Shown one piece after another: positions 20,407 to 37,706 of a DNA stretch of 37,805 nucleotides. Each line of letters begins with the position of its first letter. The stretch's first letter is position 1. A program made the translations under genes and the position numbers. The DNA lies in assembly GCA_900319075.1 (NCBI GenBank), contig ONMZ01000030.1, forward strand, positions 1 to 37,805. Reading direction: 5' to 3'. The notes beneath the pieces are model-generated. The model saw nothing but the letters and a program-made list of their open reading frames with translations, ran no database searches and had not been told where the DNA came from. Source of the stretch: an uncultured Eubacteriales bacterium. Lineage in GTDB: Bacteria > Bacillota > Clostridia > Oscillospirales > Ruminococcaceae.

Positions 20407-20478
20407 GTTATTGCGACAAATTAGAGTTTGTGGGTCTGAACGACCTATAAGGGCTTGCCAAAGACAAGACAGGTTTTT

Positions 20479-20790
20479 CGCCCAGCCTTTTCTCGTAAAA
20501 AAGGCTGGCGGGTCGAGGGCGGCGCCCTCGTCGCTCTCCGCAGAGAGCGAAATCCCCCTACATCGTGCGCTCCGCAAGGGGTGAATTTCAAAACAGTCCG
20601 GTGGACGGGCTTGCGGGTCGAGGGCGGCGCCCTCGTCGCTCTCCGCAGAGAGCGAAATCCCCTTACATCGTGCGCTCCGCAAGGGGTGAATTTCAAAACA
20701 GTCCGGTGGACTGTTTTGGAAGAGGGGACGCCCTGCAAGAGAGGGCGTGCCCCTTTGAAAAGCGCAAAACTCTCTTCCCTCAATCCGCCT
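20479..20790. repeat. GC-rich repeat island with a duplicated 99-bp unit
   Basis: Two direct copies of a 99-bp unit lie at 20508-20606 and 20613-20711, with one mismatch (C at 20558, T at 20663). Each copy holds two palindromes, GAGGGC-GGC-GCCCTC and CGCTCTC-CGCA-GAGAGCG. A hairpin with CAGCCTT/AAGGCTG arms (20479-20510) precedes them and a GGGACGCCCT/AGGGCGTGCCCC hairpin follows at about 20726-20755. Both strands are open in places, but the codons only reflect the repeat. The rest of 20407-20886 shows no gene. Confidence 0.8.
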
Positions 20791-20886
20791 GCAAAAAGGC
20801 GGCTTGAATCTCATATAATGAGCACCTATGACCCCTTCGGGTGCACAACTATTATTTTGATAATAATATAAATTCTGATTTATAGC

Positions 20887-25153: not shown

Positions 25154-25402
25154 ATGGAAACGAGAGTTGCTGTTATAGCCGTGATCGCTGAGGACTATGA
25201 AGCTGCCGGACAGATAAACGCTGTGCTGCATGAGTATGGCGAGTATATAATCGGCAGGATGGGACTGCCTTATCGGCATAAGGGAATGTATATCATAAGC
25301 GTGGCGATAGATGCCTCGCAGGATAAGATCAACACCCTTGCCGGCAGGATAGGCAGGATCAGCGGAGTGACGGCAAAAACTCTCTATTCGGGCAGGCAGT
25401 AA
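25154..25402 (+). CDS. TM1266-type iron-only hydrogenase system putative regulator
   Basis: An 82-residue protein with the ACT-like/NikR-C-like layout of the TM1266 family: 'RVAVIAVIAEDYEAAGQINAVL', 'YIIGRMGLPYRHKGMYIISV' and 'LAGRIGRISGVTAKTLYS'. Members of this family sit next to [FeFe]-hydrogenase maturation genes and are thought to regulate them; the ligand is unknown. ATG 25154 is taken because CGGAGG lies seven bases upstream; the longer frame begins inside the promoter. It is the first gene of the operon, ahead of a terminator-like element and hydF. Confidence 0.85.
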   Translation: METRVAVIAVIAEDYEAAGQINAVLHEYGEYIIGRMGLPYRHKGMYIISVAIDASQDKINTLAGRIGRISGVTAKTLYSGRQ

Positions 25403-25422
25403 AAACAGAATAACCTTTATCT

Positions 25423-25540
25423 CCTGACGCTGAAATTATTATTGAGGCGAAAGCTTGATAGATGTAAAAACAGGGTATGCCCATTACAGGGGCATAGACT
25501 GTTTATGTGCAGTTTATCCGTCAGGGTGAACTGTTTTTTT
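25423..25540 (+). promoter_or_regulatory. Candidate riboswitch/attenuator between regulator gene and hydF
   Basis: A strong intrinsic terminator ends the element: CAGTTTATCC (25510-25519), loop GTCA, GGGTGAACTG (25524-25533), then seven T. CCTGACG at 25423-25429 is fully complementary to CGTCAGG at 25519-25525, which spans the terminator loop and arm, so the two pairings exclude each other. Between them is a long hairpin (AAACAG..TATGCCC..GGGGCAT..CTGTTT, 25468-25504). No promoter is seen after it, so hydF and all later genes must be read through it. The fold does not match any riboswitch class I know. Confidence 0.55.
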
Positions 25541-25591
25541 ATTGCATGACCCACAGAGAGGATCTTAAAAGAAAGGAAGCGCAGATGTATT

Positions 25592-26788
25592 ATGGGACTT
25601 AACGATGTTCCTTCCTCGGAGCGTTTGCATATCGGTTTTTTCGGAAGACGAAATGCAGGCAAGTCAAGTATTGTGAATGCGGTGACCGATCAGGGGCTTT
25701 CCCTTGTGTCTGATGTGGCAGGGACCACGACCGACCCGGTATACAAGGCAATGGAGATCTTGCCCCTGGGACCGGTGGTCATAATCGACACAGCAGGCAT
25801 TGACGATGAGGGAGAGCTTGGTCAGATGCGTGTAAAGAGCACGAGAAACGCCCTTAACCGCACAGATATAGCTGTGCTTGTAACCGATCCCGGGGTGGGT
25901 ATCGGGCCCTGGGAAAGAGAGCTTATCCAGCTTTTTGAAAAAAAACAGATACCCTTTATAATTGCCGTAAACAAAACCGATATGGCAAAAGCGCAGGTGC
26001 AGGGTGAAAACTGTGTATACGTAAGCGCAAAAACAGGAGAGGGTATCAAAGCGCTGAAAGAAAAGCTGGGGGCTTTGGCGGAAAAGCCGGGACGAGAAGC
26101 AAGAATAATCGGGGACAAGCTGAAAAGAAACGATCTTGTGGTGCTTGTGGTGCCTATTGACGAAAGCGCACCCAAGGGCAGGCTTATACTGCCCCAGCAG
26201 CAGACCATAAGAGATATCCTTGATGCAGATGCCTGCGCTTTGGTGGTAAAGGATACCGAGCTGGGGGATACTTTAAGGACTATCGGCAAAAAGCCAAGGC
26301 TGGTGATAACCGATTCTCAGGCTTTTGCGGTGTCAAACGAACAGACACCGCCTGATATAATGCTGACCTCATTTTCTATCCTTATGGCAAGGTACAAGGG
26401 CTTTCTTGATACCGCCGTTGAGGGCGCAGCTGCCATAAGCCGCCTTCAGGACGGTGCAAAGGTGCTTATCTCTGAGGGCTGTACCCATCACAGGCAGTGC
26501 GGAGATATCGGCACGGTGAAGCTGCCTGCCATGCTGAGAAAGTTCACGGGAAAGGATATTTCTATCCAAACCTCATCAGGGCGTGAGTTTCCCGATGACC
26601 TTTCAAAGTATTCTCTGGTGATACACTGCGGCGGATGTATGCTTACTCCCAGGGAGATGAGCTATCGTATGAAGTGCGCCTCAGACCAGGGGGTGGCTTT
26701 TACAAATTACGGTGTGGCTATTGCCTTTATGACAGGGATATTAAAACGCAGCGTGGAGATATTTCCCCACCTTTATGAGAAACTGTGA
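25592..26788 (+). CDS. hydF: [FeFe]-hydrogenase maturation GTPase HydF
   Basis: Scaffold GTPase that carries the diiron subcluster and hands it to apo-[FeFe] hydrogenase. The N-terminal Era-like GTPase domain has the P-loop GRRNAGKS (residues 18-25), 'GTTTDPVYK' and 'VVIIDTAGIDD', and an 'NKTD' motif. The C-terminal part has the [4Fe-4S] ligand set CTH ... HCGGC, the two parts about 45 residues apart. Length 398, normal. ATG 25592 matches the family start (MGLNDVPSSERLHI), but its Shine-Dalgarno (GGAAG) is about 12 bases away. A five-codon reading frame starting at ATG 25584 lies closer and overlaps the start. Confidence 0.94.
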   Translation: MGLNDVPSSERLHIGFFGRRNAGKSSIVNAVTDQGLSLVSDVAGTTTDPVYKAMEILPLGPVVIIDTAGIDDEGELGQMRVKSTRNALNRTDIAVLVTDPGVGIGPWERELIQLFEKKQIPFIIAVNKTDMAKAQVQGENCVYVSAKTGEGIKALKEKLGALAEKPGREARIIGDKLKRNDLVVLVVPIDESAPKGRLILPQQQTIRDILDADACALVVKDTELGDTLRTIGKKPRLVITDSQAFAVSNEQTPPDIMLTSFSILMARYKGFLDTAVEGAAAISRLQDGAKVLISEGCTHHRQCGDIGTVKLPAMLRKFTGKDISIQTSSGREFPDDLSKYSLVIHCGGCMLTPREMSYRMKCASDQGVAFTNYGVAIAFMTGILKRSVEIFPHLYEKL

Positions 26789-26796
26789 GTGATGAT

Positions 26797-27864
26797 ATGG
26801 AAAACAAAAAGCTGATAGATATACTTGAAAAAAACAGACACCTTGAGCGTGAACAGTGGATAGCCCTGCTTGACACCTTTACCGATGAGGACAGAGCATA
26901 CGCAGCTCAAAAAGCTGCAAAGACCGCAGTAAGCGTGTTCGGAAAGTCGATCTATATCAGAGGCATCGTGGAGTTTTCAAACGTATGCAAAAACGACTGC
27001 CTTTATTGCGGAATCAGAAGATCAAATACCAAATGCGAAAGGTACCGCCTTAGCAAGGATCAGATCCTTGACTGCTGCCATGCGGGATATGAGTACGGTT
27101 TTCGCACCTTTGTGCTGCAAAGCGGCGAGGACAAAAGCTTTACCACGGATAAGCTGTGCGATATAGTTTCAGCTATAAAAAAAGCACATGGCGACTGTGC
27201 GGTGACACTCTCTGTCGGTGAGCTGGAACACGAGGACTATAAGAGGCTTTTTGATGCAGGTGCAGACAGATATCTGCTGCGCCACGAGACCGCTGACGAG
27301 AAGCATTACGGCAAGCTCCACCCGGGCGAGATGAGCTGGCAGCACAGAATGAAATGCCTTGAAGATCTTAAAGAGATAGGATTCCAGACCGGCTGCGGAA
27401 TGATGGTGGGTTCACCTTTTCAGACAAGCGGAAATTTAGCCGACGATCTTTTGTTTCTGGAGCGTTTCAAGCCCGAAATGATAGGTATGGGACCGTTTAT
27501 TCCCCATAAGGACACTCCCTTTTGGGACAAGCCCGCAGGCAGTTATGAGCTTACGCTGTTTTTGATAAGCCTTTGCAGGCTTATGCTGCCCGATTGTCTG
27601 ATACCTGCAACGACTGCCCTTGGTACCATAAGACCTGACGGCAGGGAAAAGGGAGTGCTTGCAGGTGCAAATGTAATAATGCCCAATCTTTCACCCATAG
27701 ATGTGCGAAAAAAATATCTGCTTTATGACGGCAAGATATGTACAGGCGATGAATCTGCACAGTGCAGAGCCTGTCTTGAAAGACGAATGGAGTCGATAGG
27801 CTACAAAGTTGAGATAACAAGAGGAGATCATAAAAGTTATGATAAAAATAGCGATATACGGTAA
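26797..27864 (+). CDS. hydE: [FeFe]-hydrogenase maturation radical SAM enzyme HydE
   Basis: Radical SAM enzyme of the BioB-like fold that acts in building the H-cluster diiron subsite. The CxxxCxxC SAM-cluster motif is at Cys64/68/71 (CKNDCLYC). A C-terminal Cys-x7-Cys-x2-Cys set ([12 protein letters not shown]) matches the auxiliary cluster site found in some HydE proteins. Typical HydE stretches include '[13 protein letters not shown]', '[10 protein letters not shown]' and '[15 protein letters not shown]'. ATG 26797 is used; GTG 26785, overlapping hydF, is an alternative. The gene ends 26 bases inside the first NifH-like gene. PylB or BioB are less likely because of the close HydE-specific motifs and the hydF neighbour. 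Confidence 0.92.
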
Positions 27865-28591
27865 AGGCGGCATAGGTAAGTCCACTACCGTTTCTAACTT
27901 GGCAGTTGCCATGGTAAAAAAGGGACTTAGGGTCATGCAGATAGGCTGTGACCCAAAGGCGGACTCGACCTCGCTTCTCAACGGGGGCAGGAGAATAAAG
28001 ACTGTGCTTGAGCTTATCAGAGAAAAAGGAGATGCCCTTGAGCTTGAAGATATGGTCACCGTAAGCGATGAAGGAGTTTTCTGCGTTGAGGCAGGCGGAC
28101 CTGTACCGGGGCTTGGCTGTGCAGGGCGAGGCATAATCGCTGCACTTGAAAAGCTTGAAAAGAAAGGCGCATACGAAAAGTACAAGCCGGATGTGGTGCT
28201 TTATGATGTGCTGGGCGATGTGGTGTGCGGCGGCTTTTCCATGCCCATGCACAGAGGCTACGCTCAAAAGGTGTTTATTGTCACCTCAGGAGAAAAGATG
28301 TCCTGCTATGCGGCAGGCAATATCGCCATGGCAATAGAAAATTTCAAGGGCAGAGGCTATGCACAGCTTGGAGGTTTTATCCTCAACAGACGAAATGTTG
28401 AAAACGAGCTTGAAAATGTACAGTCCCTTGCAAAGGATTTTGATACAGTCATTGTTGGTGAGCTTGAACGAAGCGGGCTTGTACAGGAATGTGACAGGCT
28501 GGGAACTACGGTGATGAACAAGTACCCCGAAAGCAGTATGGCAAGACAGTATGAAAAGCTGGCGGACGAGATAATGAAAGGTTTTGAGTGA
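27839..28591 (+). CDS. NifH-like ATP-dependent reductase, module 1
   Basis: A 250-residue iron-protein homologue that would bind ATP and pass electrons to a component-1-like partner. The P-loop GKGGIGKST is at residues 8-16, the switch I motif CDPKADST at 37-44, and the two [4Fe-4S] ligands are Cys94 (GLGCAGRGI) and Cys130 (VLGDVVCGG), closely matching Cys97/Cys132 of NifH. A homodimer with one bridging cluster is expected. It is shorter than true NifH (about 290) at the C-terminus. ATG 27839 has GAGGAGAT upstream. It overlaps hydE by 26 bases and is one base from the next gene. It belongs with the divergent group IV-type NifH-like proteins rather than nitrogen-fixing NifH, as no nifB/E/N is present. 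Confidence 0.92.
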
Positions 28592-28592
28592 T

Positions 28593-29921
28593 ATGCTGAA
28601 AAAAGCAGGAGGCGAGCTTGCAAAGCCGCAGGGTATAAAAATAACACAAGCCGCTTTTCCACGTCCCTTTGAAGGGGGCCTTGAATATAATCCCCCGGCA
28701 AGGGGCGATTGGAACATTGTACACATAGGTTTGCTGATACCCCAGGCTCACCAGATATACTTCTGTGCACAGGGCTGCCTTCGGGGCGTAGTGCAGACTA
28801 CGGCGGAAATGGGCGCTATGGACAGGCTTTCCTGGGCATATCTTTGTGACGAGGACTACGCAGACGGAAGCATGGAGTATAACATAATAGATTCTGTCAC
28901 ACAAGTCATAAAACGTATGGAGCAAAGACCACCTTGCATACTTGTTTTTTTAAGCTGTATGCACCTTTTTGCCGGGGTGGATTTTGATATAATAATCGAG
29001 GAGCTTGAAAGCAGATTTGCCGGGGTGGATTTTGTAAAATGCTATATGACACCTACCATGCGTTTCAGCGGACTTGCTCCCGTGCCGACAATGTATAAAC
29101 AGCTTTTTGTACCTTTGCACAGGACCACAAAGGACGGAGGAGTCAACATTATTGGGTACAACTGGGCGTTTGAGGAAGAGTGTGAACTTGTAAAGATAAT
29201 AAAAGGATCCGCAAGAGTGCTTCGCCAGCTGCCTGTTTGTGAAAACTATGATCAGTACCTTGAAATGGCAAGATCGTCACTTAATATAACAGTCATTCCC
29301 GAGGCTTTGCCGGCGGCGGAGGAGCTTGAACAAAGGCTGGGACAAAGGCATTTGTATCTGCCTGTAAGCTGGAATTTTGAGAAGATAAGGGATAATTATA
29401 AGGCGCTTTGTAAAGAGCTTGGGGTGGCAATGCCCGATCTTTCCTTTGAGGAAAACGCAGCAAAGCAAGCCTTGAAAAAGGCGGCAAAGGCGCTCGGCGG
29501 CAGGCCTGCTGCGGTGGATTTTACAGCTGCACATAAACCCTTTGAGCTCAGCGCTCTGCTGCTTGACAACGGCATCGACGTAAGGCGTATCTTTGTGGAT
29601 GTTATAAGCGGGGAAGACAAGGAAAGCTTTGAGTATATAAAAGAGCATTACCCAGATGTGGAGGTATTTCCCACGGTGGATTCGTCAATGAGATTTTTCG
29701 CCTCCCAAGAAAAAGAAGAAAACAAATACTTTGCCATAGGTCAGAGAGCAGCATATTTCTGCTGCACCAATTACTTTGTAGATATGGTAGGCGCAAGGAG
29801 CTGTTATGGCTTTGACGGCATTACAAAACTTGCCGGTGAGATCGTCCGTGGTGCAGATGTTCCAAAGGACACAAGGGCGGTTATTCAGCACAAGGGAGCG
29901 GGGTGTCAGAGCTGTCTATGA
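28593..29921 (+). CDS. Nitrogenase component 1-like protein, larger subunit D1
   Basis: A 442-residue protein of the NifD/NifK/BchN-type oxidoreductase superfamily, too divergent to name. Cys58 and Cys62 (FCAQGC), Cys85 and Cys122 (LSCMHLFAGVDFD) lie where NifD has its P-cluster ligands Cys62, Cys88 and Cys154; 'SCMHLFAGVD' resembles the NifD 'TCPVGLIGDD' stretch. A second Rossmann-like segment follows 'GYNWAFEEECELVK', and the C-terminus has 'FCCTNYFVDMVGARSCYGFDGI'. NifD is normally about 480 residues or longer. ATG 28593 starts one base after the H1 stop, and the next gene overlaps by ATGA. D/K labels here are by order and size, not proven homology. Confidence 0.82.
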   Translation: MLKKAGGELAKPQGIKITQAAFPRPFEGGLEYNPPARGDWNIVHIGLLIPQAHQIYFCAQGCLRGVVQTTAEMGAMDRLSWAYLCDEDYADGSMEYNIIDSVTQVIKRMEQRPPCILVFLSCMHLFAGVDFDIIIEELESRFAGVDFVKCYMTPTMRFSGLAPVPTMYKQLFVPLHRTTKDGGVNIIGYNWAFEEECELVKIIKGSARVLRQLPVCENYDQYLEMARSSLNITVIPEALPAAEELEQRLGQRHLYLPVSWNFEKIRDNYKALCKELGVAMPDLSFEENAAKQALKKAAKALGGRPAAVDFTAAHKPFELSALLLDNGIDVRRIFVDVISGEDKESFEYIKEHYPDVEVFPTVDSSMRFFASQEKEENKYFAIGQRAAYFCCTNYFVDMVGARSCYGFDGITKLAGEIVRGADVPKDTRAVIQHKGAGCQSCL

Positions 29922-31057
29922 TACATTATGCAAGAATAATATCATGCTATACAGCGGACACGTCCGGCGTCTGTTCAGCGCTTTATGAGCTGGGGGGAAT
30001 GGTGGTCGTCCACGATGCCTCTGGCTGCAATTCTACCTACGCTACCCATGATGAGCCCAGATGGTATCAAATGGACAGCATGATCTATGTTTCGGGACTT
30101 ACCGAGATAGACGCAGTTATGGGCAACGACGAAAGGTTTATAGATGACGTGTGCCAGACGGCACAGAAATTGAAACCGAAGTTCATTGTGATATGCGGTT
30201 CGCCAATGCCTGCAATGACCGGTACTGACTTTGATGCCCTGGCAAGGGTCATACAGAGCCGATGCAAAATACCCACCCACCCCATGCACACAAACGGCAT
30301 GAAAAGCTATATTTCGGGTGCGTCGGAAGCTTTTGAGATGCTGGCTCTCAATTACTGCACCTGCACAGGCAAAAAGAAAAATTCGGTGAACATTATCGGT
30401 GCAACACCTCTTGACCTTTCAAGGCAGGAGATAGTAGATTCAATATGGACATGGCTTGGCAAATGCGGCTTTGAGAAAGGCTGCTGTATGGCAATGGGAA
30501 GCAGTCTTGATGACCTTAAAACGGCAGGAGATGCAAGTGTAAATCTGGTGGTCTCGTCAAGCGGTCTGAGGGCGGCAAAAGTTCTGATGGAAAGGTTCGG
30601 AACACCCTATGTTGTCGGTATACCTCTGGGGGAACAATACGCAAAGGCCCTGGGCGAGGATCTGCACAGGGCAGCCGCAGAGGGAAAACAGATACTGTCC
30701 TGTACTGTGCGTGATGAAAGCTGTGAAGAATGCGGCATTGTCGTTGTAGGCGAAAGCGTATATGCAGGCTCTTTGGCAAGGAGCATAACGATGACCACAG
30801 GCAAGCCGGTGAGAGTTATCCACACCCTTGATACCTTCCCGGAGCTTGCTTTGCAATGGGATAAAAAGCTGGCGGACGAGGATAAGCTTGAACAGGAGTT
30901 TTCAAGGTGCAGCTGCGTTGTGGCTGACCCCCTGTTCAAACCCATAGTTCCTGCAAATGCAAAGTTTGTACCAATACCTCATGAGGCATTTTCGGGAAGA
31001 TGCTTCAGAAAGGATATACCGGATCTGGTGGATAAAAATCTTGGATTGGAGTTATGA
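29918..31057 (+). CDS. Nitrogenase component 1-like protein, smaller subunit K1
   Basis: A 379-residue protein of the same superfamily, with the NifK/NifN-like N-terminal run '[24 protein letters not shown]' and 'DEPRW'. Cys37 and Cys93 ([19 protein letters not shown]) are placed like the two conserved P-cluster cysteines of component-1 subunits. ATG 29918 overlaps the D1 stop (ATGA), and it aligns without gaps to the start of its paralogue K2; GTG 29903 is a longer alternative with a nearby AGGGAG. Several further cysteine pairs (CTCTG, GCCMAMG, CEECG, CSC) make it cysteine-rich. It probably pairs with D1 as a heterodimer or heterotetramer. Confidence 0.82.
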
Positions 31058-31058
31058 T

Positions 31059-31820
31059 ATGATAAAAATAGCTATATACGGAAAAGGCGGTATCGGAAAA
31101 TCTACCGTTACGGCAAACCTTGCGGCTGCGTTTGCAACTCTGGGCAAAAGGGTCATTCAGATCGGCTGTGACCCTAAGGCGGATTCGACGATCAATCTTC
31201 TGGGAGGTGAAGCGCTCACACCGGTCATGAACTATCTGCGTGAGCATGACGAACCTTCGGGTATAGAGGAGATATCCAAGATCGGCTACAAGGGGGTCCT
31301 TTGCATCGAAACAGGAGGTCCCACTCCCGGTCTCGGCTGTGCCGGCAGAGGCATAATCACGACCTTTAATCTCCTTGAAAGCTTCGAGCTTTACAAAAAA
31401 TATAAGCCTGATGTGGTGCTTTACGATGTTCTGGGAGATGTGGTCTGCGGAGGCTTTGCCGCACCCATAAGAGAGGGCTATGCCTCACAGGTGCTTATTG
31501 TCACCTCGGGGGAAAAAATGGCTTTGTATGCTGCAAACAACATAAACAGCGCTGTGAATAATTTTGCCGACAGAGGATATGCAAAAGTCAGAGGGATCGT
31601 TTTCAACCGGCGCAACACCCCTAACGAAGAAGAAAAGGTAAACGAATTTGTGCAGAAAAACGGCCTTGAAATAATTGCCGAGATACCACGAAGCGATGAT
31701 ATAATAAAATTTGAGGACGAGGGAAAAACAGTCGTTGAGGGCGATGCTGAGCTGGAGGTATCAAAGCGCTTTTTGGCTCTGGCACAAAAGCTGATAGAAG
31801 AGGATACGGAAAATGAATAA
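31059..31820 (+). CDS. NifH-like ATP-dependent reductase, module 2
   Basis: A 253-residue paralogue of H1 with the same start ([16 protein letters not shown]), switch I (CDPKADST, 37-44) and cluster ligands Cys94 (GCAGRGII) and Cys130 ([10 protein letters not shown]). It differs mostly in the surface segments (45-75) and the C-terminal third. ATG 31059 is chosen because GGAG lies seven bases upstream and the coding start matches H1 exactly; the frame is open further upstream only within K1. It is one base after the K1 stop and overlaps D2 by 8 bases. The pair H1/H2 came from a duplication or from joining two related modules. Confidence 0.92.
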
Positions 31821-33108
31821 TGCTTTTTTTATAACTGCGTCTGAGCTTGCACAGGCGGGCTTTGAAAATATACCCGATGAGCTGCAAAGCGCAAAACATC
31901 TTATATATTCCTCTCCTGCCACGCTGGCTTTTAACTCTCCCGGAGCGCAGGGCTTCGGCGTAAAAAGAGCAGGTCTTGCCATACCCGGATCGGTGATGCT
32001 GCTTGTGTCGCCCGGCTGCTGCGGAAGAAACACTACCCTCCAGTCAAGGCTCTGCGGCTATCAGGATAGGTTTTTCTATCTTCTGCTTGACGATACGGAC
32101 ATCGTTACGGGAAGGCACCTTACCAAGATACCGGAAGCTGTCAGGGAAGTATATGAGTTCTGCGACAAAAAACCCAGCGCAGTGATGATATGTATAACCT
32201 GCGTTGATGCACTTCTTGGCACGGACATGGAAAGGGTGAGCCGAAAGTGCGAGGAGCTTGCAGGGGTGCCTGTTGTGCCCTGCTATATGTATGCTCTTAC
32301 AAGAGAGAAAAAGCTTCCCCCCATGGCGGCTGTGAGGAAGGCGGTATATTCACTTCTCAAGCCCCGGAAAAGAGCTTCGGCGGATATGAATATACTCGGT
32401 TTTTTTTCGCCGCTGAATGACGACAGCGAGATATATGAGCTGCTGAAAGGGGCAGGCATCAAAAATATCCGTGAGATATCACGCTGTGAAACATTTGAAG
32501 AATATGAAAAAATGTCTCAGGCAAATTTTAATCTTGTGCTTAATTCAGAAGCTCGTTATGCGGCGCAGCAAATGGAAGAGACCCTTGGCATACCGTATAT
32601 CGAGATGATGAGAATGTATCATATAGATAAGATCCATAACCAGTATATGTCCCTTGCAAATGCGATAGGTGCAAAGTTTGACGACACCGTATATTACAAT
32701 GGGACAAAAAAAGAGATAGAGAAATTTAAGAAAAAATACGGCGGTATAAACTTTGCGATAGGCGAGTTTCTCAATGCCGATTCCCTTGAACTTGCCTGGG
32801 CGCTGCTCAGCTATGGGTTTGGTGTCTCGGAGATCTACGCAACGGTGGGCGAGCGCAACTTTGTGTTTGTGAAAGCGATAGCAAAACTCAGCCCCCAAAC
32901 GAAGATCTTTTCAAACCTCTCGCCTACAATGCTGGATTACGAACCAAGCGGTAAAAAAATAGATATATGCATAGGAAACGACGCAGGGTATTATCACGCA
33001 GATGTGCCTGCCGTCGACTGGAATGAGGAGCGCCAGCCCTTTGGATATTCAGGTGTAAGGCTGCTGTTCAAAAAGCTTGATGAAGCGCTGAAAGGAGCGG
33101 GAAAATGA
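31813..33108 (+). CDS. Nitrogenase component 1-like protein, larger subunit D2
   Basis: A 431-residue superfamily member equivalent in position to D1 but clearly diverged. Cys69-Cys70 ([11 protein letters not shown]) and Cys127/Cys130 ([17 protein letters not shown]) fall in the P-cluster-like positions; the adjacent double cysteine and the CxxC differ from the D1 pattern. The N-terminal part '[18 protein letters not shown]' resembles the entry segment of NifD/NifE-like proteins ('HGPVGC' region). The C-terminus '[19 protein letters not shown]' is unlike D1. ATG 31813 overlaps H2; the gene ends in an ATGA overlap with K2. Whether D2 is catalytic or a scaffold is unknown. Confidence 0.8.
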
Positions 33109-34160
33109 AAAAACTTCTGAAACTTCTTTCACCCTTTGCACCGGATCAGTCGGGCGCAGTGGGCGTGCTTTATGAGCTTGGCGGACTTGTGGTTATCTGC
33201 GATGCAGGGGGCTGTGCAGGAAATATTTGCGGCTTTGATGAGCCAAGGTGGTTTTTCAAAAAAAGTGCTGTCTTCAGCGCAGGGCTTCGTGATATGGACG
33301 CTATCCTCGGACGTGATGATATGCTCATCGCAAAGACCGCAAAGGCTGTGGGTCAGACTGATGTGAAGTTCACAGCCGTTGTGGGCACCCCTGTGCCTGC
33401 GGTCATAGCGACCGACTACCGTGCGCTGAAAAGAATGGCTGAAAACAAAACACATCTGCCCTCGGTCTGCATTGACTGCACCGGAACAAGGCTTTACGAC
33501 GACGGGGAGGAAAGAGCGTATCTGGAACTGTTCAAAACTTTTGCATCGGAAAAATATGAAACCGTAAAAGGCAAAACAGGCATTATCGGCTGTACACCTC
33601 TTGCAACGGGATATATGACACCCGGGATATTTGAAAAGTCGTTTGGAGAAAACGCTGTTTGCTTTGCAATGGGCAGCGGGCTTGATGAGATACAAAAGGC
33701 TTCACGGTGCGATAAAAATATTGTCATCTCAACAGGCGGTATAAAGGCTGGTGAATATTTGAAACAGCAATTCGGCATTGAATACACCACCGATTTCCCT
33801 GTGACACCGGCTATGGAAAAGGTGCTTGAAAACGATCTTTCAGACAAAAAGATACTTGTTGTACATCAGCAGTTTGCGGCAAACAAAATGCGTGAGCTTA
33901 TAAAAAACAAGTATGAATGCAGCGTTGATGTGGGGACCTTTTTCAAGCTGTTCGGCGAGTTTGCCGGCAAGGGGGACTTCTTTATCCCGGACGAACAGCA
34001 GCTTCTTGAAAAGGTCAGCGCAGGGGGCTATGATGTGGTCATTATTGATAATATCTGCCACCGTGCGCTGAAAGACTGTGAATGCCGGCTGATCGACTTT
34101 CCCCACTTTGCAGTTTCCGGCAGACTTGATGAAAACGGAGGACAGGTATGCCTTGCTTGA
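33105..34160 (+). CDS. Nitrogenase component 1-like protein, smaller subunit K2
   Basis: A 351-residue paralogue of K1. The first 94 residues align with K1 without a gap: 'LYELGGLVVICDAGGC', 'DEPRW' and 'TPVPAVIATDYRAL' all have K1 equivalents. Cys37 is kept, and Cys32 and Cys42 are added. The K1 cysteine at position 93 is Val here (AVVGTPVPA), so one P-cluster-like ligand is missing. The C-terminal part ends 'NICHRALKDCECRLIDFPHFAVSG'. ATG 33105 follows AAAGGAG and overlaps the D2 stop as ATGA. The end overlaps hypF by 13 bases. The missing ligand suggests a different cluster or a non-catalytic role. Confidence 0.82.
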   Translation: MKKLLKLLSPFAPDQSGAVGVLYELGGLVVICDAGGCAGNICGFDEPRWFFKKSAVFSAGLRDMDAILGRDDMLIAKTAKAVGQTDVKFTAVVGTPVPAVIATDYRALKRMAENKTHLPSVCIDCTGTRLYDDGEERAYLELFKTFASEKYETVKGKTGIIGCTPLATGYMTPGIFEKSFGENAVCFAMGSGLDEIQKASRCDKNIVISTGGIKAGEYLKQQFGIEYTTDFPVTPAMEKVLENDLSDKKILVVHQQFAANKMRELIKNKYECSVDVGTFFKLFGEFAGKGDFFIPDEQQLLEKVSAGGYDVVIIDNICHRALKDCECRLIDFPHFAVSGRLDENGGQVCLA

Positions 34161-36433
34161 TCATAAGACTTTACGGCATTGTTCAGGGCGTAGGCTTCAG
34201 ACCCTTTGTTGCAAGGACCGCACGCTCTATGGGCGTGCTTGGGACGGTGGCAAATAAAGGCTCCTGCGTGGAGATATTTGCACAGGGGGAAAAGGAAGTT
34301 CTTGATAGGTTTGTATACGCTGTAAAAAACCGTGCTCCGGAGCGTGCGGCGGTCATCTCTGCCGATGTAAGACAGGTAAAGGACAAAAGCTTTGACTCCT
34401 TTGAGATAATCCAAAGCGAAAAGGAGGAAGGGGCAATATTTGTTTCGCCGGATATCGCCACCTGTGATAAATGCCGAAGGGAGCTGTTTGACAAAAACGA
34501 CAGACGGTATCTTCACCCGTTTATAAACTGTACCCAGTGCGGTCCACGGCTGACGATCCTTGAAGCAATGCCCTATGACAGGGAAAGAACCACCATGAAA
34601 AGCTTTCCCATGTGCCCCGATTGTGAGTACGAATACACTCATGCTCACACCAGAAGATACGACGCCCAGCCTGTGTGCTGCAACGACTGCGGACCGCAGG
34701 TGTATATTGTACACAGGGAAATAAAGGGCGGTGACGCCATAACATTTGCACGCAAAAGCATAATGGAAGGAAAGATAATCGCAGTTAAAGGTATAGGCGG
34801 CTTTCACCTTTGCTGCGATGCAGCTAACGAGCAGGCGGTGGGCAGGCTGAGAAAACTGAAAAACCGTCCTGCAAAACCCTTTGCGGTCATGATGAAAGAC
34901 ATGGATACCGTTGAGCGTGAATGCCATGTGCTTGAGGGACAAAAGGAATTTCTGACCGGCTACCAAAAACCCATACTGCTTCTTGAAAAGAAAGAGGAGG
35001 GGGAGCTTTGTCCCGGCGTTTCTCCGGACAATCCCACAGTAGGTGTCATGCTGCCCTATGCACCGGTGCAGATGCTTTTGTTTGATTACCCTGACGAGGT
35101 AAAAATGACCGACTGCCTGGTGATGACAAGCGGCAACGTTTCGGGAGCGCCTATCTGCCGAAACGATGAGGATGCACAAAAACAGATCGGCTCCTACTGT
35201 GATCTGATGCTTTCTCACAACAGGGAAATACTTATCCGTGCAGACGATTCGGTGATGGACTGGTTTGACGGCAAACCGTATATGATACGCCGAAGCCGTG
35301 GATTTGCACCCCTGCCGGTCATGGTGAGCAAGGAAAAAGAGGTAACATCTCTTGCAATAGGAGGAGAGCTTAAAAACACCTTTTGCATAGGCAAGAACAG
35401 ACTGCTGTATCTGTCATCGTATGTGGGAGATATGGCGGACATAAGAACGGTAAACGCCCTGAAAGAATCCGTGGGACGAATGCAGGAGCTGCTTGAGGCT
35501 CAGCCGACGATCTGTGTGTGCGATATGCACCCTAAGTATAATACCGTTACCGTCGCACAGGAAACAGGCTTGCCGCTGGTGAGGTTGCAGCACCATTACG
35601 CTCATATCCTTTCCTGTATGGCGGAGAACGACTGCGATGAAAAGGTCATTGGTGTTTCCTTTGACGGCACAGGCTACGGCACGGACGGCACCATATGGGG
35701 AGGCGAGATACTCGTTTGCGATACCCACGGATTTGAAAGATCAGCAAGTATAAAGCCTTTCAAACAGGTGGGAGGAGATGCTTCCTCAAAAGAGGGCTGG
35801 CGTATCGCTGTTCAGCTGATAAGGGATTCCTGGGGCGAGAAAGCACAGAAGGTATGCAGCGAACTTGGTATCTGCGATGAAAAAACATTCAAGCTGCAAT
35901 CGGTAATGGCGGACAAGGGTATAAACACCGTCACTTCCACCAGCGCAGGCAGGCTTTTTGATGCAGTGAGTGCGATCCTCGGTATAAGGAGGAGTTCCAC
36001 CTTTGAGGGCGAAAGCTCAATGAGCCTTGAATTTGCAGCCGAGAGATTTGAAAAGCAGCAGGCGGAGTGTGAAAAGACAGCTGCACGCATCAACGGCAGC
36101 GGCTTTGAAACGATAGATACGACCTCGCTTGCGGGTGAGATAGCAAGGCGTTTTATTGACGGCGAAAGTGCCGAAAAGCTTGCCTTTGTTTTCCACACCT
36201 CACTTGCGGACGGTATAGTAAGATGCTGCGAAAGTATCAGCCGGAAAACAGGCGTAAAAAAATGTGCATTAAGCGGAGGAGTGTTCCAGAACAAGCTGCT
36301 TTTAAGGTTGGTAAAGCAGCAGCTCCGGGAGCTTGGCTTTGAGGTGCTTATCCATTCCCTTGTCCCGGCAAACGACGGTGGGATCGCCCTTGGGCAGGCT
36401 TATTATGCACTTTGCAATTGTAATAACGAATAA
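34148..36433 (+). CDS. hypF: Hydrogenase maturation carbamoyltransferase HypF
   Basis: Transfers a carbamoyl group from carbamoyl phosphate to the C-terminal cysteine of HypE, the source of the cyanide ligands of [NiFe] hydrogenase. All domains are present in the 761 residues. An acylphosphatase domain (1-90, 'YGIVQGVGFRPFV') comes first. A double zinc finger follows with Cys106/109, 128/131, 156/159, 178/181 in the exact CxxC-x18-CxxC-x24-CxxC-x18-CxxC pattern. Then come a YrdC-like domain (about 200-385) and a Kae1-like domain (about 400-755) with the metal ligands in 'HHYAHILSCM' and 'SFDGTGYGTDG'. ATG 34148 has GGAGG upstream and overlaps K2, tying hypF to the nitrogenase-like genes. Confidence 0.96.
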   Translation: MPCLIIRLYGIVQGVGFRPFVARTARSMGVLGTVANKGSCVEIFAQGEKEVLDRFVYAVKNRAPERAAVISADVRQVKDKSFDSFEIIQSEKEEGAIFVSPDIATCDKCRRELFDKNDRRYLHPFINCTQCGPRLTILEAMPYDRERTTMKSFPMCPDCEYEYTHAHTRRYDAQPVCCNDCGPQVYIVHREIKGGDAITFARKSIMEGKIIAVKGIGGFHLCCDAANEQAVGRLRKLKNRPAKPFAVMMKDMDTVERECHVLEGQKEFLTGYQKPILLLEKKEEGELCPGVSPDNPTVGVMLPYAPVQMLLFDYPDEVKMTDCLVMTSGNVSGAPICRNDEDAQKQIGSYCDLMLSHNREILIRADDSVMDWFDGKPYMIRRSRGFAPLPVMVSKEKEVTSLAIGGELKNTFCIGKNRLLYLSSYVGDMADIRTVNALKESVGRMQELLEAQPTICVCDMHPKYNTVTVAQETGLPLVRLQHHYAHILSCMAENDCDEKVIGVSFDGTGYGTDGTIWGGEILVCDTHGFERSASIKPFKQVGGDASSKEGWRIAVQLIRDSWGEKAQKVCSELGICDEKTFKLQSVMADKGINTVTSTSAGRLFDAVSAILGIRRSSTFEGESSMSLEFAAERFEKQQAECEKTAARINGSGFETIDTTSLAGEIARRFIDGESAEKLAFVFHTSLADGIVRCCESISRKTGVKKCALSGGVFQNKLLLRLVKQQLRELGFEVLIHSLVPANDGGIALGQAYYALCNCNNE

Positions 36434-36453
36434 TAAAAATGGAGGTATAAATT

Positions 36454-36660
36454 ATGTGTGTAGGTTTATCGGCAAAAGTGGTCGACCTTAAAGACGGTAC
36501 GGCGGTGATCGACGCAAGCGGAGCAAAAAGAAGCGTCAGCGCAGAGCTGCTTGACGATCTGGAAATAGGCGATTACGTAATGGTACACGCAGGTGTTGCC
36601 ATCGCAAAGATCACCGACGATGACGAAAATGAAACCAATAAGATCATGGAGGAACTGTAA
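36454..36660 (+). CDS. hypC: Hydrogenase maturation chaperone HypC
   Basis: A 68-residue HypC/HybG/HupF-family chaperone. The N-terminal Met-Cys (MCVGLSAKV) provides the essential Cys2 that holds the Fe(CN)2CO unit with HypD and docks on the target precursor. The rest is the small OB-like barrel ('VIDASGAKRSVSAELL', 'IGDYVMVHAGVAIAKI'). ATG 36454 has GGAGG upstream; the gene is 20 bases after hypF and its stop overlaps the hypD start by one base (TAATG). In other organisms HypC delivers to a [NiFe] hydrogenase large subunit, which is not encoded here. Confidence 0.95.
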   Translation: MCVGLSAKVVDLKDGTAVIDASGAKRSVSAELLDDLEIGDYVMVHAGVAIAKITDDDENETNKIMEEL

Positions 36661-37706
36661 TGGAAAACTTGAACGGTCTTTCCCCAAAGGAGATCCTGCA
36701 AAGCTATAACGGCAGAAAACTGCGGATCATGGAGGTCTGCGGCACCCACACTCACGAGATATTCCGCCTTGGGATAAGAAAGATACTTCCCGAAAGCATC
36801 GAGCTTATCTCCGGACCCGGGTGTCCTGTGTGCGTGACACCTGTGGGGTTTATTGACGAGGCGTGCTGTCTTGCGCTTGAAAAGGGGTGCGTGATCTGCA
36901 CCTTCGGCGATCTTATAAGAGTCCCCGGAACACAAATGAGCCTTGCAGATGCAAGAAGCAAGGGCGCACAGATAAAGACCGTATACTCGCCCCTTGACGC
37001 CGTGGAATTTGCAAAGGATAATCCCGACAAGCAGGTGGTGTTTCTTGCCGTCGGGTTTGAGACCACAACGCCCTCTGCTTGTATAGCGGTAGAACAGGCA
37101 AAAAAACAAGGGCTTGACAATTTCTCCATTCTGTGTGCAAACAAGACCATGCCAAACGCTTATCAGGCTTTAAAGGGAAGCGCCGATGCTTTTCTTTTCC
37201 CCGGTCATGTTAATGCCATAACGGGAAATACCGCCTGCCGTGAGCTTTGCAAACAGGGTGTGAGCGGAGTCGTTGCAGGCTTTACCGCAAAGGAACTGCT
37301 GACGGCGCTTGCGGTAACGGTGACGCTGCTGCAAAAGGGTGAGCCGTTCTTTGTAAACTGCTATCCGAGAGTCGTTAAGGAAGAGGGAAGCCCTGCGGCG
37401 CAAAAGCTTATGGCAAAGGTAATGGAGCCTTGCGACAGCGAGTGGAGAGGCCTTGGCGTGATAAAAATGTCGGGCATGAAGCTGCGTGACGAGTATGCGG
37501 AATTTGACGCACGCAAAAAGTACAGCCTGCCCGAAATGAAAGGCAAGCCAAACCCTGCCTGCCGCTGCGGCGATGTTTTGCAGGGCAAGTGCAAGCCAAG
37601 CGACTGTAAGGTGTTCGGCAAGGTTTGTACACCGCAGCACCCCGTAGGTGCTTGTATGGTCTCCGGCGAAGGCGCTTGCTCGGCATATTATCAGTACGGT
37701 ATGTAA
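36660..37706 (+). CDS. hypD: Hydrogenase maturation Fe-S protein HypD
   Basis: Redox Fe-S scaffold on which the Fe(CN)2CO group is assembled with HypC and HypE. The 348-residue protein has Cys27 in CGTHTHE (iron-binding cysteine), GPGCPVC with Cys55/Cys58, 'VGFETTTP', 'PGHVNAITG' and the C-terminal [4Fe-4S] ligands in the 'CRCGDVLQGKCKPSDC' region. The length is typical and the gene is complete. ATG 36660 has GGAGG upstream. hypE, the usual next partner, is not found before the window ends. Confidence 0.96.
   Translation: MENLNGLSPKEILQSYNGRKLRIMEVCGTHTHEIFRLGIRKILPESIELISGPGCPVCVTPVGFIDEACCLALEKGCVICTFGDLIRVPGTQMSLADARSKGAQIKTVYSPLDAVEFAKDNPDKQVVFLAVGFETTTPSACIAVEQAKKQGLDNFSILCANKTMPNAYQALKGSADAFLFPGHVNAITGNTACRELCKQGVSGVVAGFTAKELLTALAVTVTLLQKGEPFFVNCYPRVVKEEGSPAAQKLMAKVMEPCDSEWRGLGVIKMSGMKLRDEYAEFDARKKYSLPEMKGKPNPACRCGDVLQGKCKPSDCKVFGKVCTPQHPVGACMVSGEGACSAYYQYGM

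Follow-up and report, generated by a model that had tools for sequence, protein, structure and literature searches.

Gene organization of the locus

The window examined in this study, the whole of a 37,805-nucleotide stretch of DNA from an uncultured Eubacteriales bacterium, constitutes an entire contig (C46, 1-37805) of a 2.26-Mb genome assembled in 58 contigs. It contains a cluster of 12 genes, all with open frames on the + strand and arranged in the order TM1266-hydF-hydE-nifH1D1K1-nifH2D2K2-hypF-hypC-hypD (25154 to 37706), in which hydrogenase maturation genes flank two nitrogenase-like modules, NifHDK-1 and NifHDK-2. Comparison of this cluster with its relatives in other genomes suggests that NifHDK-1 probably replaces HydG as the source of the Fe-CO-CN precursor for HydE and HydF.

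The cluster begins with a gene for an 82-residue, TM1266-family putative iron-only-hydrogenase system regulator (25154..25402; TIGR03959, 103 bits against a cut-off of 60.8; PF21699). It is followed by hydF (25592..26788; TIGR03918, 553 bits against 325.55), encoding the GTPase scaffold of the [2Fe] unit of the H-cluster, and by hydE (26797..27864; TIGR03956, 559 bits against 254.6), encoding the radical S-adenosylmethionine H-cluster maturase, which aligns with solved HydE chains. Module 1 consists of nifH1 (27839..28591; PF00142) for an Fe-protein-like ATPase, nifD1 (28584..29921; PF00148) for a nitrogenase component-1-like subunit that marks HydG-less genomes, and its partner nifK1 (29903..31057; PF00148). 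Module 2, which is linked to the Hyp genes, comprises nifH2 for a second Fe-protein-like ATPase (31059..31820, the start having been corrected to 31059; PF00142), nifD2 for a component-1-like subunit (31813..33108; PF00148) and its partner nifK2 (33105..34160; PF00148). The remaining genes are hypF (34148..36433; TIGR00143, 790 bits against 466.1), whose product is the carbamoyltransferase feeding cyanide synthesis, hypC (36454..36660; TIGR00074, 59.2 bits against 48), whose product is a chaperone retaining the N-terminal Cys2, and hypD (36660..37706; TIGR00075, 410 bits against 192.8), encoding the Fe(CN)2CO scaffold.

From hydF through hypD, the gaps between genes ranged from -26 to +20 bases. 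A preliminary description of the window had proposed a one-strand operon running from hydE to hypD, with hydF included, and complete HypF, HypC and HypD, and both points were confirmed. Its extent of the cluster was only partly right: the genes that it named are in place, but the start lies upstream of hydE, with hydF at 25592 and the TM1266-type gene at 25154. A scan of genome contigs for NifD1 yielded seven loci of named relatives (Ruminococcus, Clostridia or Clostridiales), and the identical 12-gene order was found in all seven. The order is therefore neither unique to this contig nor the product of chance.

The genome of the window also encodes the [FeFe]-hydrogenase HydA (341 bits) in a frame of 582 residues that contains TSCCPGW and EVMACPGGCINGGG, which we take to be H-cluster motifs. 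A NuoF-like frame, recognized by eye, adjoins HydA, presumably the arrangement of bifurcating HydABC types. The maturases HydE and HydF were both over their cut-offs in this genome. However, no match over the cut-off was obtained there for HydG, and the sole match to the HydG model was HydE (60.6 bits). The preliminary description had spoken of a reductase or carrier not involved in dinitrogen fixation, acting on an organometallic Fe-CO/CN cofactor or another low-potential substrate. An Fe-CO/CN unit is the best guess here too, but the description had missed both the absence of HydG beside an [FeFe]-hydrogenase and the importer variant described below. Because the [FeFe]-hydrogenase is present and HydG is missing, the vague reductase or carrier becomes a specific proposal for a bypass of HydG.

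Distribution of NifD1 and HydG

The association between NifD1 and HydG was analyzed in a class sample of 243 genomes with a completeness of at least 90, the genome of the window included. Matches were obtained for HydA in 230 genomes, HydE in 166, HydG in 159, HypD in 43 and NifD1 in 15 (E 1e-6), and 10 of the NifD1 matches scored over 300 bits with the NifD1 query (A1), the limit used to define the strong NifD1 group (lowest member 317 bits; next match below, 249 bits). Both HydA and HydE were present in 163 of the 243 genomes, of which 150 had HydG and 13 did not. Members of the strong NifD1 group accounted for 10 of the 13 HydG-negative genomes and for none of the 150 HydG-positive genomes (Fisher 1e-13, kinship not corrected). 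The exact probability of the pattern within families was 4e-5. Families f1, f5, f38 and f40 each contained both states, with no exception in the family table, which covers 40 of the 163 genomes (the families with NifD1-group members or exceptions, plus f2 and f3). One member of f40 that has HydA and lacks NifD1, HydE and HydG (G223) stands outside this table. When the weak matches were included, 4 of the 150 HydG-positive genomes had a NifD-like match.

The pattern was replicated in an order sample of 346 genomes with a completeness of at least 85. NifD1 gave 15 matches at E 1e-25, of which 13 were strong, including 3 already present in the class sample; of the two weak ones, G396 had HydG and G366 did not. 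HydG over its cut-off was found in none of the 17 replication genomes (10 new strong genomes and the 7 named relatives), where the best other matches to the HydG model reached about 181 bits and are probably ThiH. Over the class sample, the order sample and the named relatives, HydG over its cut-off was found in none of the 27 strong NifD1-group genomes. Replacement of HydG by the NifHDK-1 group is well supported at the genome level.

Two types of NifD1 locus

The 27 genomes fell into two types. In type A (16 genomes), to which the window belongs, both nif modules are accompanied by hypF, hypC and hypD, and in type B (11 genomes) the locus contains module 1 only, without the second nif module and the Hyp genes. 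On the other hand, a FecB/FecC/FecE-like ATP-binding cassette (ABC) importer of the iron-chelate type was found in 10 of the 11 type-B loci and in none of the 16 type-A loci; the type-B locus without it is a 6.2-kb contig (L054). HydE and/or HydF were encoded in 15/16 type-A loci and 8/11 type-B loci, as against 0/7 loci of other NifHDK modules.

HypD was present in all 16 type-A genomes and in 2 of the 11 type-B genomes. The large subunit of [NiFe]-hydrogenase (PF00374, E 1e-5) was matched in none of the 16 type-A genomes, and a role of the type-A hyp genes in serving a [NiFe]-hydrogenase was rejected on this ground. In type-B genomes G426 and G480, a partial large-subunit match (model positions 1-70, about 50 bits) was located on the same contig as HypD.

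HypE was encoded beside hypD in 11 of the 16 type-A loci. In the window, this position coincides with the end of the contig (37707..37805, + strand), which lies 99 bases past hypD. No HypE match over the cut-off was found in the genome of the window (86.65% complete), probably because the contig stops just past hypD. Among the sister loci, hypE over its cut-off follows hypD in L003, and the contigs of L005, L006 and L007 end less than 300 bases from hypD, as in the window. In L009, the 2.2 kb that follow hypD showed no HypE.

The replacement of Hyp and module 2 by an importer suggests that the compound accepted by module 1 can also come from outside the cell. The binding protein of the type-B importer resembles binders of iron chelates, heme and siderophores, all below the NCBIfam cut-offs. 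This resemblance is compatible with another explanation, in which NifHDK-1 supplies iron by reducing a compound taken up from outside (iron chelate, heme or corrinoid), and CO and CN reach the H-cluster from free or other sources. HydE and HydF without HydG are indeed reported to give about 1% activation (PMC9431212). In addition, at L036, L043, L044, L045 and L052, in genomes that have HydG or lack HydE, other NifHDK modules were observed beside FecB/C/E-type importers with no hydE or hydF nearby. However, a role in iron acquisition would leave unexplained both the loss of HydG and why type A has NifHDK-2 and its dedicated Hyp genes in exchange for the importer, and we consider it improbable.

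Relationship of the nitrogenase-like proteins to known families

For all six NifH, NifD and NifK proteins of the window, every NCBIfam model listed gave a score under its cut-off. NifH1 and NifH2 gave 305.3 and 311.4 bits with the nifH model (cut-off 394.35), 308.7 and 296.2 bits with the CfbC model (cut-off 402) and 182 and 209 bits with the BchL model (cut-off 345.15), respectively. NifD1, NifK1, NifD2 and NifK2 were far below the cut-offs of the Nif D/K models or had no match, and with the BchB model NifK1 and NifD2 gave 56.4 and 35.6 bits (cut-off 490.35). Membership in canonical nitrogenase, CfbC or BchL was rejected on these scores, in agreement with the earlier view that the system is not a dinitrogen-fixing nitrogenase. 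Placement of the NifH proteins in a characterized clade, which would have spoken against the preliminary description, was not indicated by the nifH, CfbC and BchL models (the set contained no model for Mar).

The conserved residues were next compared. C94 and C130 of NifH, which we take to be the cluster ligands, were kept in 21/21 NifH1 and 16/16 NifH2 proteins examined, so that the cluster cysteines reported as intact are indeed so. For the component-1-like subunits, nitrogenase numbering was assumed in the comparison with P-cluster cysteines. C61, C65, C125 and C441 of NifD1 and C42 of NifK1 were invariant in 27/27 proteins, and C70, C127 and C130 of NifD2 and C37 and C42 of NifK2 were invariant in 16/16; the match of the NifK2 cysteines and the other ligand equivalences were judged by eye. 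The P-cluster-like cysteines of the preliminary description are thus present in part, one or more being invariant in each of the four subunits, but the set is incomplete. The NifK1 column corresponding to the cysteine of NifE TCVPALIGDD holds no Cys, and the nearby C98 was retained in only 10 of 27 proteins. Among the maturation proteins, C297, C303, C346 and C349 of HydF were found in 17/17 proteins examined, Cys2 of HypC in 16/16 and the last Cys of HypE (C335) in 11/11, and HypC, HypD and HypE all keep their invariant cysteines.

By sequence, NifD1 (A1) had no solved relative at E 0.01, whereas the best solved relatives of NifD2 were a nitrogenase alpha chain and then NifE, and those of NifK1 were NifE chains. 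Structural models of NifD1 and NifK1 had mean predicted local distance difference test scores of 62.1 and 69.5. In a fold search with the low-confidence NifD1 model, nitrogenase-family chains made up all 50 of the matches listed. The predicted fold matches the nitrogenase component 1 type, with no finer placement, and a Mar chain was one of the many nitrogenase-type matches.

These data bear on the possibility that the modules form an ordinary group IV nitrogenase-like reductase, of the F430-type CfbCD or Mar kind, beside hyp genes for a [NiFe]-hydrogenase. The scores of NifH1 and NifH2 with the nifH and CfbC models, though under the cut-offs, are high. In contrast, both NifH proteins stay below the nifH, CfbC and BchL cut-offs, the D and K proteins are under every cut-off shown, the [NiFe] large subunit is missing from all type-A genomes, and type-A HypD forms a clade of its own (see below). 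Such a reductase is therefore very unlikely, and the hyp genes lack the [NiFe]-hydrogenase client that the preliminary description had named as a possible refutation.

Phylogenetic analysis

The NifD1 proteins of the 27 genomes formed one clade (support 100/100), outside which stood the 6 NifD-like proteins taken from further genomes, and a 7-residue NifD1 fragment dropped out of this tree. The NifK1 proteins of the 27 genomes likewise formed one clade (100/99), and NifD2, NifK2 and NifH2 each formed one clade of 16 (100/100). In the NifH tree, the NifH1 row of G180 was mis-extracted (a 698-residue frame) and has a very long branch. The NifD-like modules of G063, G117, G131, G231 and G396, all from genomes with HydG, and those of G125 (without HydG and HydE) and G366 (without HydG) were excluded as NifD1-group members. 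Of these out-of-pattern modules, none that is represented in the D or K trees was located within the 27-member clades; G117 is in the K tree only, and the D protein of G231 groups with NifD2.

Types A and B were interleaved in both trees. The D tree has 4 changes for either type, and the K tree has 3 for type A and 4 for type B. More than one exchange between the importer and the Hyp/second-module part therefore seems to have taken place, although no more than 1 to 3 of the changes are forced by starred branches. Type-A HypD proteins formed one clade (100/100) against 20 other HypD proteins, taken from 18 of the 36 other class-sample genomes with HypD and from G426 and G480.

On the HydE tree, the HydG state has to change 6 times, and starred branches force at least 4 of these changes; the swap involving HydG therefore happened more than once. 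Between HydE proteins from HydG-less and HydG-positive genomes (40 rows, 22 against 18), only 2 discriminating positions were found in 435 columns, too few to indicate a new substrate. The comparison did not include 6 NifD1-group genomes (G050, G106, G119, G173, G319 and G364), some of its rows are short at the start, and one of the 18 HydG-positive rows (G178) is a wrong frame of 224 residues, which was removed before the tree was built. Since HydE is hardly altered, its substrate is likely to be similar in the two groups.

An alternative is that the nif-like and Hyp proteins build the cofactor of another enzyme, that the loss of HydG had a separate cause, and that hydE and hydF lie nearby only because of shared anaerobic regulation. 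The lack of a direct biochemical link between the nif-like or Hyp proteins and the H-cluster would fit this explanation, as would the L033, L041, L047 and L048 stretches, which hold neither hydE nor hydF, and the genomes that lack HydG without having NifD1. It is argued against by the distribution of NifD1 between HydG-negative and HydG-positive genomes, which also holds within families, by the repeated HydG changes on the HydE tree, and by hydE and/or hydF in nearly all type-A loci. We regard this alternative as unlikely.

Proposed route to the H-cluster precursor

In the HydE/HydF/HydG system, HydG forms CO and CN from tyrosine and hands an [Fe(Cys)(CO)2(CN)] synthon directly to HydE, which reduces it and is proposed to dimerize it; the last stages fall to HydF together with the glycine cleavage system (PMC11736057). 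The present genomes resemble that system in having HydE, HydF, HydA and the TM1266-type gene, with HydE nearly unchanged, but differ in that HydG is absent throughout the NifD1 group and nif-like modules of another family are in its place. Fe(CN)2CO is made by HypC, HypD, HypE and HypF (PMC9431212) and is assembled on HypC/HypD (PMC6802093). Of these proteins, HypC, HypD and HypF are encoded in the window and HypE is encoded in sister loci, and invariant cysteines are retained. In contrast to [NiFe] maturation, no [NiFe] large subunit accompanies them and type-A HypD is a separate clade. The modules themselves share with NifEN/NifDK the component-1 family and a NifH partner, NifE being among the best solved relatives of NifD2 and NifK1; unlike NifEN/NifDK, they score far below the NifD/K/E/N cut-offs, and NifK1 has no Cys at the NifE TCVPALIGDD column.

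Two closely linked NifHEN-like copies have been described in Coprococcus catus and Dorea longicatena, and in C. catus and other Firmicutes such genes were associated with hydrogenase maturation proteins and given a possible role in metallocluster assembly (Dos Santos 2012, PMC3464626). Co-location of nif-like and maturation genes is therefore known since 2012. In contrast, the missing HydG, the missing [NiFe] client and the importer variant are not mentioned in the available part of that account. An unexplained absence of hydG in some acetogens has been noted (PMC9431212), and a ProPhylo study of 2011 counted 200 genomes with HydF, 189 with HydE and 179 with HydG, the available text leaving the loss of HydG without comment (PMC3226654). 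No proposal for a bypass of HydG was found in the titles and abstract openings of the mainly open-access literature searched.

HydG is gone, HydE and HydF are kept with HydE nearly unchanged, and a dedicated Hyp set occurs without a [NiFe] client. The simplest explanation would be that Hyp supplies an Fe-CN-CO unit, which the nif-like modules convert and deliver. A route from Hyp through module 2 and module 1 to HydE is plausible, although its individual steps are less certain than the replacement of HydG itself. In the first step, HypF and HypE would form cyanide from carbamoyl phosphate, and HypC-HypD would carry the Fe(CN)2CO unit. Nitrogenase proteins are able to reduce CO2 to CO. In the second step, NifH2-D2K2, acting as an ATP-driven, NifEN-like scaffold and reductase, would accept the unit from HypD, supply or exchange ligands, possibly including CO from CO2 reduction, and free a mobile Fe-CO-CN species. 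NifH1-D1K1 would then take up this species, carry out a low-potential reduction and pass an Fe(CO)2(CN)-type synthon to HydE, after which HydE and HydF would complete and insert the cluster in the usual way. In type B, the first two steps would be bypassed, and an imported iron complex would enter at the third; this import of an organometallic precursor is a bold suggestion. In its fullest form, the model would merge the assembly lines of nitrogenase and of [NiFe]- and [FeFe]-hydrogenases: HypCDEF and a NifEN-like module would make mobile Fe-CO-CN, the other module would reduce it to the H-cluster synthon, and type-B organisms would import it from neighbors by an ABC transporter as a shared metabolite. 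We put this form forward only tentatively, as possible rather than likely.

Several points weigh against the replacement of HydG by NifHDK-1 and the route drawn from it. The proposal comes from genome comparison, and its chemistry is inferred; the ligands do not match either, since the Fe(CN)2CO of Hyp has two CN to one CO and the synthon requires two CO to one CN. Nine of the 11 type-B genomes lack HypD, and import is the one cyanide source that can be suggested for them. nifH1 lies outside the stretch in 5 of the 16 type-A loci (G050, G119, G138, G173 and G413), and both modules may therefore share one NifH. Three genomes with HydA and HydE (G057, G140 and G185) lack HydG and have no NifD1 match; all three are without HypD, and G185 is 91% complete. 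Similarly, of 20 same-family genomes without NifD1, 8 also lack HydG and 12 have it. The absence of HydG thus does not require NifD1. Furthermore, 61 of the 230 HydA-positive class-sample genomes lack both HydE and HydG, so that the presence of HydA is no proof of local maturation. HydA was found in 10/10 class-sample members of the NifD1 group, the set to which this count applies. The limit for strong matches was drawn after the scores were known, although the tree agrees with it. The genome of the window is only 86.65% complete, and its HydA (L002) has IPCTAKKFE as the second H-cluster motif, as we take it, with Ile at the presumably usual Met position.

If the replacement holds, HydG would not be the sole natural source of CO and CN for the H-cluster, and an unassigned group of nitrogenase-like proteins in Clostridia would gain a function. 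It would also bear on the origin of CO in Hyp-type maturation, which has been called elusive (PMC6802093). D. longicatena is among the isolates that have been assayed for H2 (PMC12578642).

Other features of the loci

HydA-positive genomes without HydE and HydG at the limits used include genomes of 0.8-0.9 Mb from one genus (f9/g15), and the ProPhylo study also refers to a small number of species in which HydA occurs without any maturase (PMC3226654). At L033:12266-13321, a TM1266-type domain was observed inside the open frame of a FecE-like ABC ATPase. Of 10 type-B loci, 7 have a FecE frame of 351-374 residues, whereas this frame is 262-270 residues long elsewhere, and a TM1266-FecE fusion is therefore probably common in type-B loci. 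At L008:19185-20675, hypD and hypE are separated by a frame that by eye looks acetyltransferase-like, and hypE was matched in two pieces. The assemblies of the window, L005, L006 and L007 all stop shortly after hypD, which suggests that a repeat located there breaks the assembly. In the window, a block of about 33 residues occurs twice in tandem in the listed open reading frames at 20455-20871; the likely cause is a direct repeat in DNA lying between genes.

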